A DNA stretch of 64,000 nt from Hyphomicrobiales bacterium (GTDB lineage: Bacteria; Pseudomonadota; Alphaproteobacteria; Rhizobiales; Xanthobacteraceae). Position 1 is the stretch's first letter. Each line of letters opens with the position of its first letter. Of the stretch, positions 45,104 through 55,111 are shown piece after piece. The position numbers were made by a program, and so were the translations under genes. The notes under the pieces are model-generated. The model was not told where the DNA came from. It did not search any database and worked only from the letters and a program-made list of their open reading frames with translations. The DNA lies in contig JAFKKN010000002.1 of assembly GCA_017305535.1 (NCBI GenBank), positions 62,001 to 126,000 of the forward strand, read 5' to 3'.

Positions 45104-45781
45104 TCAGGAACACCGCGCCGCGGCGATGGCGTGCATGCGGCTGTCGCCGAGCACATGCGCAGTGAATTCCAGCGACTTGAAGATCGCCGCGAAGGCGAGG
45201 TCGCGAATGCTCAGGCCACCGGTATAGGCGCCGAACGCCGGCATGATCGCACGTTCACCGTCGCTGGCGAAGCAGCGCCGCTCCACCGAGCGGCCGCGCC
45301 GCGAGACACGCGCCTTCGGATGCAGATGGCCGGCGATTTCGCCGGCAGCACCGGTCGGCTCATGGCGGAACACGACAGGGCCGATGCCGACATCGCTGGC
45401 GATGCTGCCGCCGAGATTGCGCGGCAGATCAGGGTCGTGATTGCCAACAATCCAGATCCAGTCACGTCCCGCTTGCAGCGTTGCCAGCGTCGCGCGATGC
45501 GCAACCGACAGACGATCATGCGCCTCACGATCATGAAAACTGTCGCCGAGCGCGATCACCGCGCGTGGCTGATAGCGCGCGATCACGGTATCGAGCCGCG
45601 CCAGCGTTTCGGTCGTGTCATGTGGCGGCAGCAGCACGCCGCGCATGGCGAAGCTGGAACCCTTTTCCAAATGTAGATCAGAGACCACGAGCAAGTGCTC
45701 GTCGTCCCAATACAGCGCGCCCGAGAGGTCGGCGGTGAAGCTCACACCGGAAATGGTGACGGTTGAAAAATGACCCGTCAT
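45104..45781 (-). CDS. pdeM: ligase-associated DNA damage response endonuclease PdeM
   Basis: 225-residue calcineurin-type metallophosphoesterase. All metal motifs are present: Asp35-X-His37 (VVSDLHLEKGS), Gly-Asp80 with His83-Asp84 (IALGDSFHD), Asn114-His115-Asp116 (IVGNHDP) and His152-X-His154 (IAGHLHP). Relatives in Pseudomonas are Mn-dependent DNA endonucleases acting with the Lhr-type helicase. The start ATG at 45781 is the one that gives the usual ~20 residues before the core; it and the GAGG before it lie inside a family 1 repeat. Same strand as the helicase gene, 124 bases further along. Confidence 0.88.
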   Translation of the reverse strand: MTGHFSTVTISGVSFTADLSGALYWDDEHLLVVSDLHLEKGSSFAMRGVLLPPHDTTETLARLDTVIARYQPRAVIALGDSFHDREAHDRLSVAHRATLATLQAGRDWIWIVGNHDPDLPRNLGGSIASDVGIGPVVFRHEPTGAAGEIAGHLHPKARVSRRGRSVERRCFASDGERAIMPAFGAYTGGLSIRDLAFAAIFKSLEFTAHVLGDSRMHAIAAARCS

Positions 45782-45866
45782 GCCCGGCCTCGTGTCGGGC
45801 ATCCACGTCTTCCTTTTTCGGGACGCCAACAAGACGTGGATGGCCGGGACAAGCCCGGCCATGACG
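45776..45866. repeat. family 1 palindromic repeat, copy B (supplies the pdeM start region)
   Basis: 91 bp: CGTCATGCCCGGCCTCGTGT at the left, ATCCACGTCTT and AAGACGTGGAT facing each other inside, ACAAGCCCGGCCATGACG at the right. Outer inverted pair CGTCATG/CATGACG is perfect. Reading on the minus strand, the left end gives GAGGCCGGGCATGACG, which is GAGG, 6 bases, then ATG. Confidence 0.88.
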
Positions 45867-45905: not shown

Positions 45906-48620
45906 TCACGTTCCCGTCGCCTCGCGCACCAGATCCTCGGCGGCTTCCGCCAGCAATTCGTCCGAGGCTTCGCCGTAAACCGCTTCGCGACCGATTTCCA
46001 GCATCACCGGCACTGCGAGCGGAGAAATCCGATCGAGTTCCTTGTGAGTGATTCGACCCGCGATACGCGCCAGCATATCACTCAGGCGCCGCAAATCGAG
46101 CAGCCCCGTCGCGGCGTCGGCACGCGCCGCGCGCAACAGCACGTGATCCGGCTGATGTTTTCTCAAAACGTCGTAGACGAGATCGGTGGAGAACAGCACC
46201 TGACGCCGGCTTTTCTCCTCGCCGGTGAAACGGCGCGGAATCAATCCCGAAATGATCGCGCAGTTGCGGAATGTGCGCTTCATCAGCGCGGATTCCGCGA
46301 GCCATGCTTCCAGATCGTCGCCCAGCATGTCGGGATCGAACAGCGTGGCAAGATTCAAGCGGCCCTGCCGGATCATCGCCGACATATCGCCCAGCGCCCA
46401 TACCGCCAGCGCATATTCGTTGGCGACGAAACCGAGCGGCCGCACCCGCGCACGCTCCAGCCGCCGCGTCAGCAGCATGCCGAGCGTCTGGTGCGCCAAC
46501 CGCCCCTCGAACGGATAGCAGACGAGGTAATGCTTGTCGGCGCGCGGAAAAGTTTCCACCACCATCTCGCGCGCGCCCGGCACACGTGAGCGATAGGATT
46601 GCAGCGACAGCCATTCGCGCACCTGATCCGGCAGCCCCTTCCACGCGCGCTGATCCGCCAGCAGCAAGCGCACGCGTTCGGCAAGGTAGGTCGAGAGCGG
46701 AAACTTGCCGCCCATGTAGGACGGCACTTTCGCGTCGGCATCGTTGGCGCGCGAGACATAGACCTCATCTTCCACCAGCGCCTCGTAACGCACGATCTCG
46801 CCGCCGAAAACAAAGGTGTCGCCGACCACCAGCCCCTCGATGAAATATTCCTCGATCTGGCCGAGCATGCGGCCGCCGCGCGCGACGGTGCCGGTCGAAC
46901 CTGAGCCGCCGCGCCGCGAGCGCACCAGCCGCACCTTGAGCATCGATTCCTCGACGATGGTGCCGACGTTGAGCCGATAGCTCTGCCGCACCTTCGGATT
47001 GGCGACGCGCCATCGCCCCTGCTTGTCCTGCTTGATGCGCGCGAAACGCTCGTAGCTTTTCAGCGCATAACCGCCGGTTGCAACAAAATCGACCACGTCA
47101 TCGAAATCCGCACGTGACAAGTCCGCGTAAGGCGCGGCTGTTTTCACTTCCGCATAAAGATCCTCGGCAAGAAACGGTTCGCCGCAGGCGCAGCCGAGTA
47201 CATGCTGCGCCAACACATCAAGCGCGCCGGGCCGTAGCGGTGGCGTGTCCTGCGCGTTCTCGTTCACCGCATCGATGGCGACGCGGCACTCCAACACTTC
47301 GAACCGATTGGCCGGCACCAGCACCGCGCGCGAAGCCTCATCGAGGCGGTGATTGGCGCGGCCGATCCGCTGCATCAGCCGCGACGATCCCTTCGGCGCG
47401 CCGATATTGACGACGAGATCGACATCGCCCCAGTCGACGCCGAGATCGAGCGACGAGGTACACACCACGCCGCGCAATTTGCCGGCGGTCATCGCGTCCT
47501 CGACCTTGCGGCGCTGGCCGACATCGAGCGAGCCGTGATGCAAAGCGATGGCGAGATTGTCGTCGTTCATCCGCCACAGATCCTGAAACAGCATCTCGGC
47601 CTGGCTGCGGGTGTTGACGAACACCAGCGTGGTCTTGTTGCGCTTGATCAGATCGTAGATTTCGCCGAGCGCGTGGCGCGCCGAATGCCCCGCCCACGGC
47701 AAGCGCTCGCGGGTGTCGAGCATTTCGACCACAGGCGCCGCCGCGCCGCCTGCGACGACGATGTCGGCGGCTGGGTTTTCCTCCTCACTTGGCGCAGCAT
47801 CTTCTCCCCTCCCCCCACGCCCTTGCGTGGCGGGGAGGGGTCGGGGGTGGGGGGAAGCGGCATTTCGGACATCAACGCCGTCTCCGCTGAAGAGCCCCCC
47901 ACCCCCGACCCCTCCCCGCCGCTTCGCGGAGGGAGGGGAGATAATCTGCGGCACGAGAAATCTTGCCAGCGACTCCGGTTCCGCGACCGTCGCGGACAGT
48001 CCGATGGCACGCACCTGCGGCGCGATGGTCCACAGTCGCGAGAGTCCGAGCGACAGCAGGTCGCCGCGCTTCGATGTCACCAGCGCGTGCAGTTCGTCGA
48101 GCACGATCCGTCGTAGCGATGCAAACAGATAGGGCGCGTCGTCGGATGCCAGCAGCAAGGCCAGTTGTTCCGGCGTCGTCAGCATGATGTCGGGCGGATA
48201 GCGCCGTTGCCGCTGCCGCCGCGACGCCGGCGTATCACCGGTGCGGGTCTCGACCCGGATCGGCAGGCCCATTTCGGCGACCGGCGTTTCCAGATTGCGC
48301 GCGATATCGACCGCCAGCGCCTTCAACGGCGAGATGTAGAGTGTGTGGAGGCCGCCAGCCTTCTCCCCGGCGCTTCGTGGAGGGAGAGGAGTTGTCCGCG
48401 TTTTCGGGGACATTCCGCTCAGTTCCACCAGCGTCGGCAAAAACCCGGCCAGCGTCTTGCCGGCGCCGGTCGGCGCGATCAGCAGTGCCGAGCGGTTCGC
48501 GCGCGCTTTTGTCAGCAGCGCGAGTTGATGCGCGCGCGGAGACCAGCCACGCCGGGCAAACCAGCGCGAAAAGGCTTCCGGCAGCGGCGCAGACAGAGAA
48601 TCGGGGTCCGATAGCGGCAC
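45906..48620 (-). CDS. ligase-associated DEXH-box DNA helicase (Lhr-like) with two in-frame insertions
   Basis: 904 residues, longer than usual for the family (about 800-850). Walker A is TGAGKT at 51-56, the DEXH box is Asp175-Glu-Leu-His178, and motif V/VI region reads QRIGRANHRLDE. The Lhr core winged-helix and C-terminal domains follow. Two stretches look like insertions: about residues 70-90 (PKTRTTPLPPRSAGEKAGG) and 227-273 (SPPSAKRRGGVGGGG...TQGRGGRGED). Both are encoded by copies of the G/C-tract palindromic unit, and both keep the frame. GTG start at 48620. Works with pdeM, exonuclease and ligase in cross-link or cisplatin repair in relatives. Confidence 0.87.
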   Translation of the reverse strand: MPLSDPDSLSAPLPEAFSRWFARRGWSPRAHQLALLTKARANRSALLIAPTGAGKTLAGFLPTLVELSGMSPKTRTTPLPPRSAGEKAGGLHTLYISPLKALAVDIARNLETPVAEMGLPIRVETRTGDTPASRRQRQRRYPPDIMLTTPEQLALLLASDDAPYLFASLRRIVLDELHALVTSKRGDLLSLGLSRLWTIAPQVRAIGLSATVAEPESLARFLVPQIISPPSAKRRGGVGGGGLFSGDGVDVRNAASPHPRPLPATQGRGGRGEDAAPSEEENPAADIVVAGGAAAPVVEMLDTRERLPWAGHSARHALGEIYDLIKRNKTTLVFVNTRSQAEMLFQDLWRMNDDNLAIALHHGSLDVGQRRKVEDAMTAGKLRGVVCTSSLDLGVDWGDVDLVVNIGAPKGSSRLMQRIGRANHRLDEASRAVLVPANRFEVLECRVAIDAVNENAQDTPPLRPGALDVLAQHVLGCACGEPFLAEDLYAEVKTAAPYADLSRADFDDVVDFVATGGYALKSYERFARIKQDKQGRWRVANPKVRQSYRLNVGTIVEESMLKVRLVRSRRGGSGSTGTVARGGRMLGQIEEYFIEGLVVGDTFVFGGEIVRYEALVEDEVYVSRANDADAKVPSYMGGKFPLSTYLAERVRLLLADQRAWKGLPDQVREWLSLQSYRSRVPGAREMVVETFPRADKHYLVCYPFEGRLAHQTLGMLLTRRLERARVRPLGFVANEYALAVWALGDMSAMIRQGRLNLATLFDPDMLGDDLEAWLAESALMKRTFRNCAIISGLIPRRFTGEEKSRRQVLFSTDLVYDVLRKHQPDHVLLRAARADAATGLLDLRRLSDMLARIAGRITHKELDRISPLAVPVMLEIGREAVYGEASDELLAEAAEDLVREATGT
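47802..47942. repeat. G/C-tract palindromic unit pair inside the helicase gene
   Basis: Two copies of a ~50-bp unit facing each other over about 141 bp. The inner arms GGGGAGGGGTCGGGGG (47832-47854, 23 bp in all) and the complementary run (47895-47917) match perfectly, extended to about 26 bp by paired neighbours. The outer ends TCTCCCCTCC and GGAGGGGAGA also pair. Each unit has its own hairpin with a small loop (ACGCCCTTGCGT and CGCTTCGCG). Coding in frame. Confidence 0.9.
48359..48391. repeat. truncated copy of the G/C-tract unit in the helicase gene
   Basis: A single shortened unit: TTCTCCCCGGCGCTTCGTGG followed by AGGGAGAGGAG. It carries the same loop (GCTTCG) and flanking tracts as the full units but lacks the CCCCCCACCCCCGAC portion. 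It encodes the first insertion of the helicase (about residues 77-87). Confidence 0.75.
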
Positions 48621-51942: not shown

Positions 51943-52977
51943 ATGCGCCCGCAAGATCTTCTCGCACCGACACCGGCCGGCCTGTGTTGCAGGCTCGGCG
52001 GCTTTCACATCGACCCGATGCGATCGGTGGAACGCGCCTTGATTACCCACGCTCATTCCGATCATGCCCACCCCGGCCACGGCATGGTGCTGGCGACGCA
52101 GGAAACGCTCGACATGATGCGGCTGCGCTACGGCGACAATTTCGCCGGCCGCACGCAAGCCATCCGCTACGGCGAAACCCTCCGGCTCAACGACGTGACC
52201 GTCAGCTTTCACCCAGCCGGTCATGTCCTCGGCTCGGCACAGATCGCGATGACCCACGAAGGCCTGCGCATCGTCGCGTCCGGCGACTACAAGGACGCGC
52301 CGGACCCGACCTGCGAACCGTTCGAAGTGGTGCCATGCGACGTCTTCATCACCGAGGCCACGTTCGGCTTGCCGGTGTTCCGGCATCCCGACGCCGCGCG
52401 TGAGGTGCGGAAGCTGCTGGACTCGGTGCGGTTGTTTCCGGAGCGCGCACATCTGGTCGGCGCCTATTCGCTCGGCAAGGCGCAACGTGTCATCGCGCTG
52501 CTGCGTGCGGCCGGATTTGGCGCGCCGATCTATCTGCACGGCGCGATGGAGCCGATCACGCGATACTATGAAAGCCGCGGCATCCCGCTCGGCGACCTGC
52601 GTCCGGTGAAAGACATGAAGAAGGCGGAACTTGCCGGCACTATCACGCTGGCGCCGCCATCCGCGACCTCCGATATCTGGACCCGTCGATTCCCCGATCC
52701 TCTCACGGCTTTCGCCTCAGGCTGGATGCGGATTCGCGCCCGGGCACGGCAACGCGGCGTCGAACTGCCGCTGGTGATTTCCGATCACGCCGACTGGAAC
52801 GGCCTCACCGCAACCATCAAGGCCACCGGCGCCGGCGAAATCTGGGTGACGCATGGCGAGGAAGACGCGCTGGTGCACTGGTGCAAGACGCAAGGACTTG
52901 CGGCCCGGCCCTTGGCGCTGATCGGCTACGGCGAGGAAGACGAAAGCATCCCGGCGGCGATCGAGGGCGATGCATGA
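51943..52977 (+). CDS. ligase-associated DNA exonuclease (MBL/beta-CASP fold)
   Basis: 344 residues. The metal motif HAHSDH is at 36-41 (ALITHAHSDHAHPG), the second metal loops are SGDYKDAPDPTC and the late His/Asp block HADWNGL, TAT..THGEED typical of beta-CASP nucleases. A Gly/Ser-rich region 90-110 holds the third motif. Relatives (SNM1-like) are 5-prime or single-strand exonucleases in the ligase-associated repair set with Lhr-type helicase, PdeM and the ATP-dependent ligase. Ends ATGA over the ligase start. Confidence 0.88.
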   Translation: MRPQDLLAPTPAGLCCRLGGFHIDPMRSVERALITHAHSDHAHPGHGMVLATQETLDMMRLRYGDNFAGRTQAIRYGETLRLNDVTVSFHPAGHVLGSAQIAMTHEGLRIVASGDYKDAPDPTCEPFEVVPCDVFITEATFGLPVFRHPDAAREVRKLLDSVRLFPERAHLVGAYSLGKAQRVIALLRAAGFGAPIYLHGAMEPITRYYESRGIPLGDLRPVKDMKKAELAGTITLAPPSATSDIWTRRFPDPLTAFASGWMRIRARARQRGVELPLVISDHADWNGLTATIKATGAGEIWVTHGEEDALVHWCKTQGLAARPLALIGYGEEDESIPAAIEGDA

Positions 52978-54839
52978 ATCGCTTCGCCGAACTCCTCGAT
53001 CGCCTCAGTTACGAGCCCGGCCGCAACAACAAGCTGCGGCTGATCACGCAGTATTTTCGTGAGGTGCCCGATCCCGATCGCGGCTATGCGCTCGCCGCGC
53101 TCACTGGCGCGCTGTCGTTCAGGCACGCCAAGCCCGGATTGATCCGCGAATTGATCGCCGCGCGCGTCGATCCCGAACTGTTCGCGCTGTCTTACGATTA
53201 CGTGGGCGACCTGTCAGAGACGGTCGCGCTGATGTGGCCGAAGACGGCAGCTTCATCCCCGATCAAAGAGCCCCCCACCCCCGACCCCTCCCCACCACTT
53301 CGTGGGGGGAGGGGAGCAACCGGTGCGACCCCAACGTCCTCCCCTCCCTCCGCGAGCGTAGCGAGTGGCGGGGAGGGGTCGGGGGTGGGGGGCTCTTCGC
53401 CGCACATCAATGCGCAAGCTGGTGCCCCTCCCCAATCCTCCTGCACGGCGACGGAAAGAGCCGCACAAGGCCACAACAACCCGCCGCCACCGTCTCTTAC
53501 CGACGTCGTCACCACGCTCGCGACGCTCGGCAAGACCGAACTGCCCGCGCAACTCGCGCGCTGGCTCGACGAACTCGACGAGACCGGCCGCTGGGCACTG
53601 CTCAAACTGGTCACCGGGGCAATGCGCATCGGCGTCTCCGCGCGGCTGGCGAAGACCGCCGCGGCCGCGCTCGGCAATAAAGATCCGCACGATGTCGAAC
53701 TGATCTGGCCGGGCCTGACCCCGCCCTATCCCGATCTGTTTGCCTGGCTCGAAGGCCGCGCCGACAAGCCGGCCAACCGCGACGCCGCACCGTTCCGCCC
53801 GGTGATGCTGGCGCACGCCATCGAGACCGACGATTTCGCAGCGCTCGACGCGCGCGACTTCCTCGCCGAGTGGAAATGGGACGGCATCCGCGTACAGGCC
53901 GTCAGCGGCCGCGACGACGATGGAAACATCGTCTCGCGACTTTACTCGCGCACCGGCGAGGACATCTCAAAAAGTTTCCCCGATCTGCTGCCGTCGCTGC
54001 ATCTTCCCGGCGCCATCGACGGCGAATTGCTGGTGCTGCGCGAAGGCCGCGTGCAATCGTTCAACGTCTTGCAGCAACGGCTCAACCGCAAAAGCGTGAC
54101 GTCGAAGCTGACCAGGGAATTCCCGATCCACCTGCGCGCTTACGACCTGCTCGCGGACGATGACACCGACCTGCGGCTGCTGCCGTTCGCCGAGCGGCGC
54201 GCGCGGTTGGAAACGTTCGTCGCAAACCTTGACGATCCGCGCATCGACCTGTCGCCGGTGGTGCCGTTCGACGACTGGACGACCATCACCGCCGCGCGTG
54301 CCAATCCGGCGGCCTTCGGCGCCGGCGACGATGCCGAGGCGGTCGAGGGTGTGATGCTGAAGCGGCGCGACGCGGTCTATCTGCCCGGCCGACCCAAAGG
54401 CCAGTGGTGGAAGTGGAAACGCGATCCGCACATCATCGACGCGGTATTGATGTATGCGCAGCGTGGCCACGGCAAGCGGTCGTCGTACTATTCGGATTAC
54501 ACCTTCGGGGTCTGGACCCAAAGCGACGACGGCGACCAGCTGGTGCCCGTAGGAAAGGCCTATTTCGGCTTTACCGACGAGGAACTGCTGCAAATCGACC
54601 GCTTCGTCCGCCGCAACACCACGGAAAAATTCGGCCCGGTGCGCCATGTGGTGCACGAGCCGGACCAGGGGCTGGTGCTGGAAGTCGCCTTCGAAGGATT
54701 GCAGCGCTCAACGCGGCACAAATCCGGCGTCGCCATGCGCTTCCCTCGCATCAGCCGGCTGCGCTGGGACAAGCCGCCGCGCGACGCCGATCGACTGGAA
54801 ACGCTGGAGCGGATGCTGAAGACGGAAGAAACCCACTGA
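52974..54839 (+). CDS. ATP-dependent DNA ligase (cisplatin damage response type) with in-frame insertion
   Basis: 621 residues. The adenylation lysine is Lys301 in LAEWKWDGIRVQAV (motif I), and later motifs include GEDISKSFPDLLPS, IDGELLVLREG (motif III), EGVMLKRRDAVY (motif IV) and QWWKWKRDP (motif V). The family is usually shorter (about 530-570); the excess is an insertion at about residues 98-141, encoded by two copies of the G/C-tract palindromic unit. The insertion lies in the linker between the N-terminal DNA-binding domain and the ligase core, far from the catalytic Lys. Coupled to the exonuclease by overlap. Confidence 0.88.
   Translation: MNRFAELLDRLSYEPGRNNKLRLITQYFREVPDPDRGYALAALTGALSFRHAKPGLIRELIAARVDPELFALSYDYVGDLSETVALMWPKTAASSPIKEPPTPDPSPPLRGGRGATGATPTSSPPSASVASGGEGSGVGGSSPHINAQAGAPPQSSCTATERAAQGHNNPPPPSLTDVVTTLATLGKTELPAQLARWLDELDETGRWALLKLVTGAMRIGVSARLAKTAAAALGNKDPHDVELIWPGLTPPYPDLFAWLEGRADKPANRDAAPFRPVMLAHAIETDDFAALDARDFLAEWKWDGIRVQAVSGRDDDGNIVSRLYSRTGEDISKSFPDLLPSLHLPGAIDGELLVLREGRVQSFNVLQQRLNRKSVTSKLTREFPIHLRAYDLLADDDTDLRLLPFAERRARLETFVANLDDPRIDLSPVVPFDDWTTITAARANPAAFGAGDDAEAVEGVMLKRRDAVYLPGRPKGQWWKWKRDPHIIDAVLMYAQRGHGKRSSYYSDYTFGVWTQSDDGDQLVPVGKAYFGFTDEELLQIDRFVRRNTTEKFGPVRHVVHEPDQGLVLEVAFEGLQRSTRHKSGVAMRFPRISRLRWDKPPRDADRLETLERMLKTEETH
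53266..53397. repeat. G/C-tract palindromic unit pair inside the ligase gene
   Basis: Outer arms AAGAGCCCCCCACCCCCGAC... (53266-53293) and the reverse complement (53370-53397) match over 28 bp with no mismatch. Between them are two facing hairpins (CCACTTCGTGG and GCGAGCGTAGCGAGTGGCG) and inner arms GGGAGGGGAG / CTCCCCTCCC. The whole is open in frame and keeps the ligase reading frame. Same unit as in the helicase, but the two units point the opposite way (outer versus inner tracts). Confidence 0.92.
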
Positions 54840-54866
54840 AGCAGATCGTTGACCGCAACCTCTATT

Positions 54867-54996
54867 CGTCATTGCCGGGCTTGTCCCGGGCATCCACGGA
54901 CTTGCTGCATCACTCCGAAACAAGAGAGACGTAGATGGCCGGGACATAGGCGAGCGAAGCGACGCCGTTCTTCGAACGGCTATGCCCGGCCATGAC
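54867..54996. repeat. family 1 palindromic repeat, copy D (extended)
   Basis: Left end CGTCATTGCCGGGCTTGTCC, ATCCACG, then a longer middle (GAGACGTAGATGGCCGGG plus a hairpin CGCCGTTCTTCGAACGGC) and right end GCCCGGCCATGACAG. About 130 bp rather than 90 because of the extra hairpin. Right after the ligase stop in the 272-base gap before the DUF6460 gene; no gene was seen in the rest of that gap. Confidence 0.8.
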
Positions 54997-55111
54997 AGAA
55001 ATTAAGGCCATCACAAAAATTGAAGGACCGAACCCCCATTGACGCTGCCGCATTGGTTCCCCATTTGCGACGCGTTATAATCGTGGGAATCGATCCCACC
55101 GGAGACCCAAG

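Follow-up and report, generated by a model that had tools for sequence, protein, structure and literature searches.

The ATP-dependent DNA ligase gene in the 64-kb stretch of DNA analysed here (the window) contains, with its reading frame open, an inverted pair of palindromic units that belong to a dispersed repeat, and in relatives the same loops of this and other repair proteins are occupied by different palindromic elements. The explanation that we favour, and that as a whole we consider likely, is that the insert is a translated REP-like passenger in a loop of a genome-maintenance protein. A REP-like palindromic dimer would have entered the ligase gene in frame in the ancestor of most species of the genus, and would now be translated as a probably disordered, Pro/Gly-rich loop that is tolerated within the DNA-binding domain of the ligase. 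Such dimers would be dispersed repeats whose C-rich intragenic members sit, in the genomes surveyed, in loops of repair or translesion proteins, and the ligase linker, two helicase loops and one UvrD loop would have received different palindromes in different relatives. Entry presumably took place without a resident RAYT, for which template switching or hairpin-primed repair synthesis is our guess, and exchange or correction, either inside one palindrome or among copies, would seemingly have prevented the arms from drifting apart.

Anatomy of the ligase insert and its helicase counterpart

The ligase exceeds the curated cut-off of its family, TIGR04120, by a wide margin (Table 1). A sequence-only reading of the window had described an inverted pair with perfect 28-nt outer arms, inserted in frame and adding about 44 residues, and its coordinates, arm length and frame were all right. 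The arms, 53266-53299 and 53364-53397, measure 34 nt each, with one mismatch (97% complementary) and 64 nt between them; their outer 28 nt form a perfect inverted repeat, and the 132 nt of the pair encode 44 residues with the frame open throughout. The intact family score and the open frame count in favour of the explanation given above. In each unit a C-rich tract precedes a hairpin, whose loop varies. A 143-nt stretch holding the insert folds at -117.3 kcal/mol, against a mean of -71.5 for shuffled sequences (z -10.4; none of 200 shuffles equalled it).

Table 1 Features of the ligase and helicase genes in the window
Feature	Position	Strand	Remark
Upstream gene	51943..52977	+	putative ligase-associated MBL-fold exonuclease
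ATP-dependent DNA ligase, TIGR04120 (cisplatin damage response ligase), 621 aa	52974..54839	+	812 bits, curated cut-off 400
Whole variable linker, residues 90-174, within the N-terminal DNA-binding domain	53241..53495	+
Inverted pair of palindromic units, C-tracts outside	53266..53397	.	sequence, arm search, folding
Unit 1, tract and hairpin	53266..53317	+	borders by eye
Unit 2, tract and hairpin, opposite orientation	53339..53397	-	borders by eye
Canonical G-quadruplex motif, unit 1 tract	53271..53293	-
Canonical G-quadruplex motif, unit 2 tract	53370..53392	+
Lhr-type DEXH helicase, TIGR04121 (ligase-associated), 904 aa	45906..48620	-	1094 bits, cut-off 850
Helicase insertion site 2, residues 226-283, inverted pair, tracts facing each other	47772..47945	-
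Helicase insertion site 1, residues 69-90, degenerate repeat remnant	48351..48416	-	by eye

The earlier reading had placed the insert in the linker between the N-terminal domain and the ligase core, which proved wrong: it splits the N-terminal DNA-binding domain itself. PF04675 (DNA ligase N terminus) spans residues 3-154 in a short-linker relative, so a linker that starts at residue 90 lies inside the domain, and here the model matches only residues 3-46, below its cut-off. The insert is, as had been claimed, far from Lys301, a residue invariant in 35 aligned ligases. The linker comprises 85 residues here and 14 in 19 short-linker Bradyrhizobium alleles (among the best 80 of 555 ligase loci). 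In a poor AlphaFold model (mean pLDDT 54), residues 90-174 form a low-confidence coil between two predicted helices. A PDB sequence search returned ligases of archaeal and eukaryotic type, the best of which align from residue 197 on, so it is uninformative on the linker.

The claim that the helicase gene, 5 kb from the ligase, carries the same unit in the opposite arrangement was borne out. The 22-nt unit core (at most three mismatches) occurs four times in the window, twice in each gene, and not once in 100 shuffles, with the tracts inside the pair in the helicase and outside in the ligase. Tract and stem together make a canonical four-run G-quadruplex motif, which in the window only these four units have. 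Site 1 of the helicase lies within the DEAD domain, between motifs, and holds hairpins in other genera; site 2 lies between the DEAD and Helicase_C domains, and its pair also occurs in two named relatives of the genus (L066 and L076). Of 56 readable helicases, 11 have hairpins at site 1 and 6 at site 2, and in 2 they lie at other positions. We take the ORF upstream of the ligase to be a putative ligase-associated MBL-fold exonuclease, and the minus-strand ORF at 45104-45862 is presumably the phosphoesterase partner of the ligase-helicase cluster. Another palindromic-looking repeat, of the cattgccgggcttgtcccgggcatcc type, was seen by eye downstream of the ligase at 54866-55000, and also at 45780-45862, where it was recognised by its peptide in the 5′ end of the latter ORF.

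Ligase linkers in relatives and the age of the insert

A ligase scan of genome contigs gave 555 loci, of which the best 80 were used and 79 had readable linkers; the scan query had long linkers, and this set may therefore favour long linkers. Together with six ligases of the genus, the 79 named loci make 85 rows, in which G002, G006 and G001 appear a second time as L066, L076 and L083, and locus counts do not represent independent events. All 79 readable linkers among the best 80 loci have lengths in multiples of three and lack stop codons. Given so stable a hairpin, ribosomes might skip the insert (bypassing) and leave it untranslated; the frame kept in every readable linker speaks against skipping, which would not need it, and we regard this explanation as hardly credible.

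Linkers of at least 100 nt occur in 60 of the 85 rows, or 58 distinct ligases once the duplicates are removed. Within this set (the best 80 of 555 loci plus the genus), 54 of the 60 hold at least one C-rich hairpin, and 57 have a match of at least 35 nt somewhere other than in a ligase linker, while none of 55 same-length pieces of the same genes had one. Those matches, together with the ten copies of the unit (at most two mismatches) in the 4.7-Mb genome, four in the ligase and helicase and six intergenic or at gene edges, uphold the view that this is a dispersed repeat. A canonical G-quadruplex motif is present in 53 of the 60 long linkers, in none of the 55 control pieces and in 7.6% of shuffles (best 80 of 555 loci plus the genus). 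The element types differ by clade: A-type pairs have their tracts outside in this genus and inside in L081, L109 and L119, B-type pairs occupy much of Bradyrhizobium, and others are found in Rhodopseudomonas and Microvirga.

Wider sampling gave ligase matches, some of them weak, in at least 197 of 297 genomes of the order and in 92 of 289 genomes of the class. Most of the strong matches listed in the two samples run end to end with a short-linker query; among those listed for the order, 13 (own genome included) begin only at query residues 85-99. The other 12 were fetched along with eight for comparison, and of the 11 late-starting linkers that were readable, nine hold REP-like palindromes, six recognised by hairpin scan and three by eye. 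In G254 and G165 the palindromes form, by eye, a pair of CGTC/Br-REP2-like type unrelated to the C-rich units, and the linker of G099 looks like a decayed unit. No palindrome was seen in the G171 linker by hairpin scan or by eye.

These comparisons bear on the possibility that the long linker is an old, inherited part of the ligase family and mobile only in looks. The pair is common to five of the six ligase-bearing genomes of the genus, and the B-type linker to many Bradyrhizobium, as this would predict. However, the end-to-end matches with a short-linker query, the Bradyrhizobium alleles with 42-nt linkers (19 among the best 80 of 555 loci), the change of element type between clades and the matches of the units outside ligases all count against it, and we consider it very improbable and largely refuted. 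Nor is the insert ancestral and conserved in all ligases of the family, the finding that the sequence-only reading had named as telling against a mobile unit: 19 Bradyrhizobium alleles (best 80 of 555 loci) have short linkers, and other genera have different palindromes.

These 19 short linkers are exactly 42 nt long and are intermingled with B-type linkers on the ligase tree. Over all 85 rows (best 80 of 555 loci plus the genus) the tree calls for 18 changes between long and short, many at weakly supported forks, and the starred branches alone force five changes of the short label. The closest contrast among the best 80 of 555 loci is that between L068 (filled) and L123 (short). Since all 19 short alleles have exactly the same length, repeated precise loss explains the pattern badly, and we would read the mixture, from these sequences, as allele exchange between species. 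In L091, L086 and L074 the B-type linker is shortened, as though the repeat pair had undergone an internal deletion or been removed altogether.

Within the genus, the ligase was found in six of the eight genomes searched; the remaining two gave weak matches (E 2e-5 and 5e-4), which we take to be something else. Five of the six carry the same pair with diverged loops and spacers, the G007 copy being partly decayed, so the idea of recent or strain-specific mobility is not supported; in the ligase of G001 this place is taken by a single palindrome of another kind. Of 48 arm sites, 0, 1 and 2 depart from the unit in G002, G003 and G006, whose ligase genes differ from the one here at 21, 26 and 31% of fourfold sites; the insert is thus old and its arms are slow to change. 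In G007 one arm is lost and the other changed at 2 of 24 sites. Exchange or correction between arms or copies would seem to account for the slow change; alternatively, it may reflect selection. The loops of the two units agree in 20 of 22 cases (permutation p 0.0003), but this amounts to only 2-5 independent contrasts on the tree, too few for loop co-variation to serve as proof of arm correction. By eye, both units of the L089 and L105 linkers carry a similar long-loop variant, which suggests copying between halves.

No empty site with the same flanks was found among the genomes of the genus for this copy, so no junction or duplication can be read for it. The Bradyrhizobium allele L074, which lacks the pair, keeps TACC at the join, and TACC is also part of the inverted ends. 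In-frame stop codons were seen in the ligase matches of G147, G454 and G456 and in the UvrD match of G593, possibly through decay or assembly errors.

Relation to known palindromic repeats

REPs are defined as palindromic, short sequences with a common consensus and several, mostly extragenic copies per genome, with a length of 14-40 nt given for E. coli (PMC12306157). The unit is likewise palindromic and short with a consensus, tract and hairpin together measuring about 50 nt, slightly over that range, and has several mostly extragenic copies (ten, with 4 of 36 hairpins of a wider pattern inside genes). Members of the GTAG super-family have an unpaired GTAG tag beside the stem, and those of the CGTC super-family a CGTC tag, a stem beginning AT and a CCA tail (PMC3733652). 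The window unit belongs to neither, and by eye no conserved tag stands beside the stem in the copies compared; the pair in G165 and G254 does agree, by eye, with the CGTC description and resembles Br-REP2 (PMC5082802). In Bradyrhizobium, Br-REP1 and Br-REP2 have been described between genes and in 3′ UTRs, and the window unit is a different sequence.

Like paired REPs (BIME type, a term from PMC3733652), the insert consists of two units in opposite orientation, but it has no tag and a low copy number, lies inside a gene, and occurs in a genus in which no Y1 transposase was found. Rickettsia palindromic elements, in-frame palindromes in genes of probably working proteins (PMC3733652), are alike by description; the unit here is GC-rich. 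For the C-rich unit we found no description in the open-access literature on such units or on intragenic REPs.

GTAG REPs in other bacteria have been ascribed to RAYTs (PMC3733652), and the unit might have been transposed in trans by such an enzyme or an IS200-like one. Y1_Tnp (PF01797) was found in none of the eight genomes of the genus, while the same search was positive in 5 of 14 control genomes, so the unit was not classed with RAYT-mobilised REPs. Comparison of short with filled alleles, made with no same-flank empty site in the genus, showed no target-site duplication. An enzyme of RAYT type may have been present once and lost since, but we judge transposition in trans to be improbable, and entry without a resident RAYT remains the route assumed in the explanation that we favour.

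Intragenic GTAG and CGTC REPs in replication and repair genes have been known since 2013 (PMC3733652): DnaE2, UvrABCD and RecBCD are named there, plus DNA ligase in O. terrae, different REPs lie at about the same site in Xanthomonas recB, and a mutator role is proposed for REP insertions in repair genes. As here, those REPs are palindromic elements and dimers inside repair genes; they are tagged GTAG or CGTC, whereas our unit has no tag, and here the ligase linker and the Lhr loops have been targeted repeatedly, in several genera, by unrelated palindromes. Lhr and ImuB were not found among the genes named in the consulted text of PMC3733652. As far as the open-access literature searched goes, what is added here is the occupation of the same loops by unrelated palindrome families, the examples in Lhr and the ImuB-like gene, and, for one genome, an exhaustive tally of a single hairpin class.

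Distribution of hairpins over genes

Hairpin density was counted over the 79 named loci (best 80 of 555) only, with crude gene calls. The ligase linker held 77 hairpins in 14.2 kb, and the rest of the ligase none in 127 kb; none was found in 80 kb of relatives of the MBL-fold gene. There were 25 in 143 kb of helicase, 74 in 191 kb of intergenic DNA and 20 in 866 kb of other ORFs, with a further 8 at the edges of ORFs (all within the best 80 of 555 loci). Those 20 hairpins belong to 15 ORFs, which on inspection are mostly antisense frames or 5′ extensions, helicase and ligase extensions included.

Whole genomes were surveyed with the pattern CCCTCYCCN4-30GGRGAGGG, which covers the C-rich hairpin class only. 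In the own genome (G000), all 37 pattern matches were examined and comprise 36 hairpins. Four of these, with hand checks, lie inside genes, and the only genes with interior hairpins, hand checks included, are those of the ligase, the Lhr-type helicase, UvrD/PcrA and DnaE2. UvrD/PcrA and DnaE2 pass with their Pfam domains; the fetched stretch truncates both genes, which leaves their scores under the NCBIfam cut-offs (719.9 bits for a cut-off of 911.2, and 932.1 bits for one of 939). In G183, a Bradyrhizobium, 67 of 92 matches were examined (52 hairpins), and hairpins lie inside the genes of the ligase, of DnaE2 and, 4 kb from the latter, of a Y-family polymerase whose NCBIfam scores are far below cut-off and which we take to be ImuB-like from its place and its N-terminus. 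In G024, a member of another family that was surveyed in part (72 hairpins examined, 109 pattern matches), the only gene with interior hairpins after hand checks is the ligase, with three units. Automatic calls gave five interior units in G000, two in G183 and five in G024, and hand decisions followed: L014 was dropped for a unit upstream of an apparent signal peptide, L256 and L280 for a codon-position pattern that is not gene-like, and three units of L235 were added, with a conserved-looking N-terminus before them and PF00817 from its position 21 after them.

Beyond the already known ligase and Lhr helicase, the survey thus added UvrD, DnaE2 twice and the ImuB-like gene, all of them repair or translesion genes, and the earlier claim that the unit sits in functionally linked genes holds more widely than it was made. 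The UvrD insert lies near the end of the N-terminal helicase domain. This loop measures 12 nt in seven of eight outer-family genomes and 24 nt in the eighth; six genomes of the family have 69-96 nt and no more than one hairpin. At 174-192 nt, G000 and G007 share one arrangement of repeats, and G002 and G003 share another. The loop reaches 189 nt in G593, which has no hairpin there and whose match contains stops, and 231 nt in G590 (one hairpin); one genome was unreadable. The acquisition of different palindromes at the same spot, and in other repair genes, suggests that placement is not random.

Pure tolerance, in which REPs insert everywhere and survive in floppy loops, with repair genes favoured as short-term dispensable, is a possible reading to which we give clearly less weight. 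The inserts do lie in loops, namely the ligase coil between two predicted helices, the helicase sites and the UvrD loop, and the empty remainder of the ligase in the best 80 of 555 loci agrees with it. On the other hand, other accessory linker proteins should then be struck too, and the four genic cases of the own genome are all repair genes; the same counter-argument is made in PMC3733652.

Hairpins with G-quadruplex motifs could also lower or condition the output of repair genes and hence the mutation rate, an adaptive tuning that we think unlikely. The strength of the predicted hairpin, the excess of G-quadruplex motifs in long linkers over control pieces, the slower change of palindrome arms than of fourfold sites and the mutator role proposed in PMC3733652 would all fit. 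Against it stand the two CGTC-type inserts, which have no C-rich hairpin, and the seven of 60 long linkers (best 80 of 555 loci plus the genus) without the motif. LexA-type boxes have the form GTTCN7GTTC. None lies near these genes, the window holding two against 1.9 expected, which also speaks against tuning, and SOS control was rejected as the reason for the repair-gene bias on the strength of this window search.

A bolder idea, which we hold with little confidence, is that selection has made repair and translesion genes a niche for palindromes that form structures, the element acting as a sensor or brake on its gene, a role open to any palindrome family present in the genome. If true, enzymes that process such structures have had hairpin and G-quadruplex elements inserted again and again into their own genes. 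On the explanation that we favour, a translated REP-like passenger, these genes would illustrate how selfish-looking DNA turns into novel stretches of protein, the trial having been repeated at a single site. Close species also differ in whether a given loop of a repair enzyme contains a palindrome, and this natural series makes the 2013 proposal on repair and mutability directly testable.

Among the intergenic hairpins, one locus (L011, G000:C15:528706-529151) shows by eye two units in opposite orientation between transporter-like genes. In six genomes of the genus (G000 and G002-G006) the starts of these two units are separated by exactly 375 bp, which makes the locus a conserved intergenic element, perhaps a small RNA.
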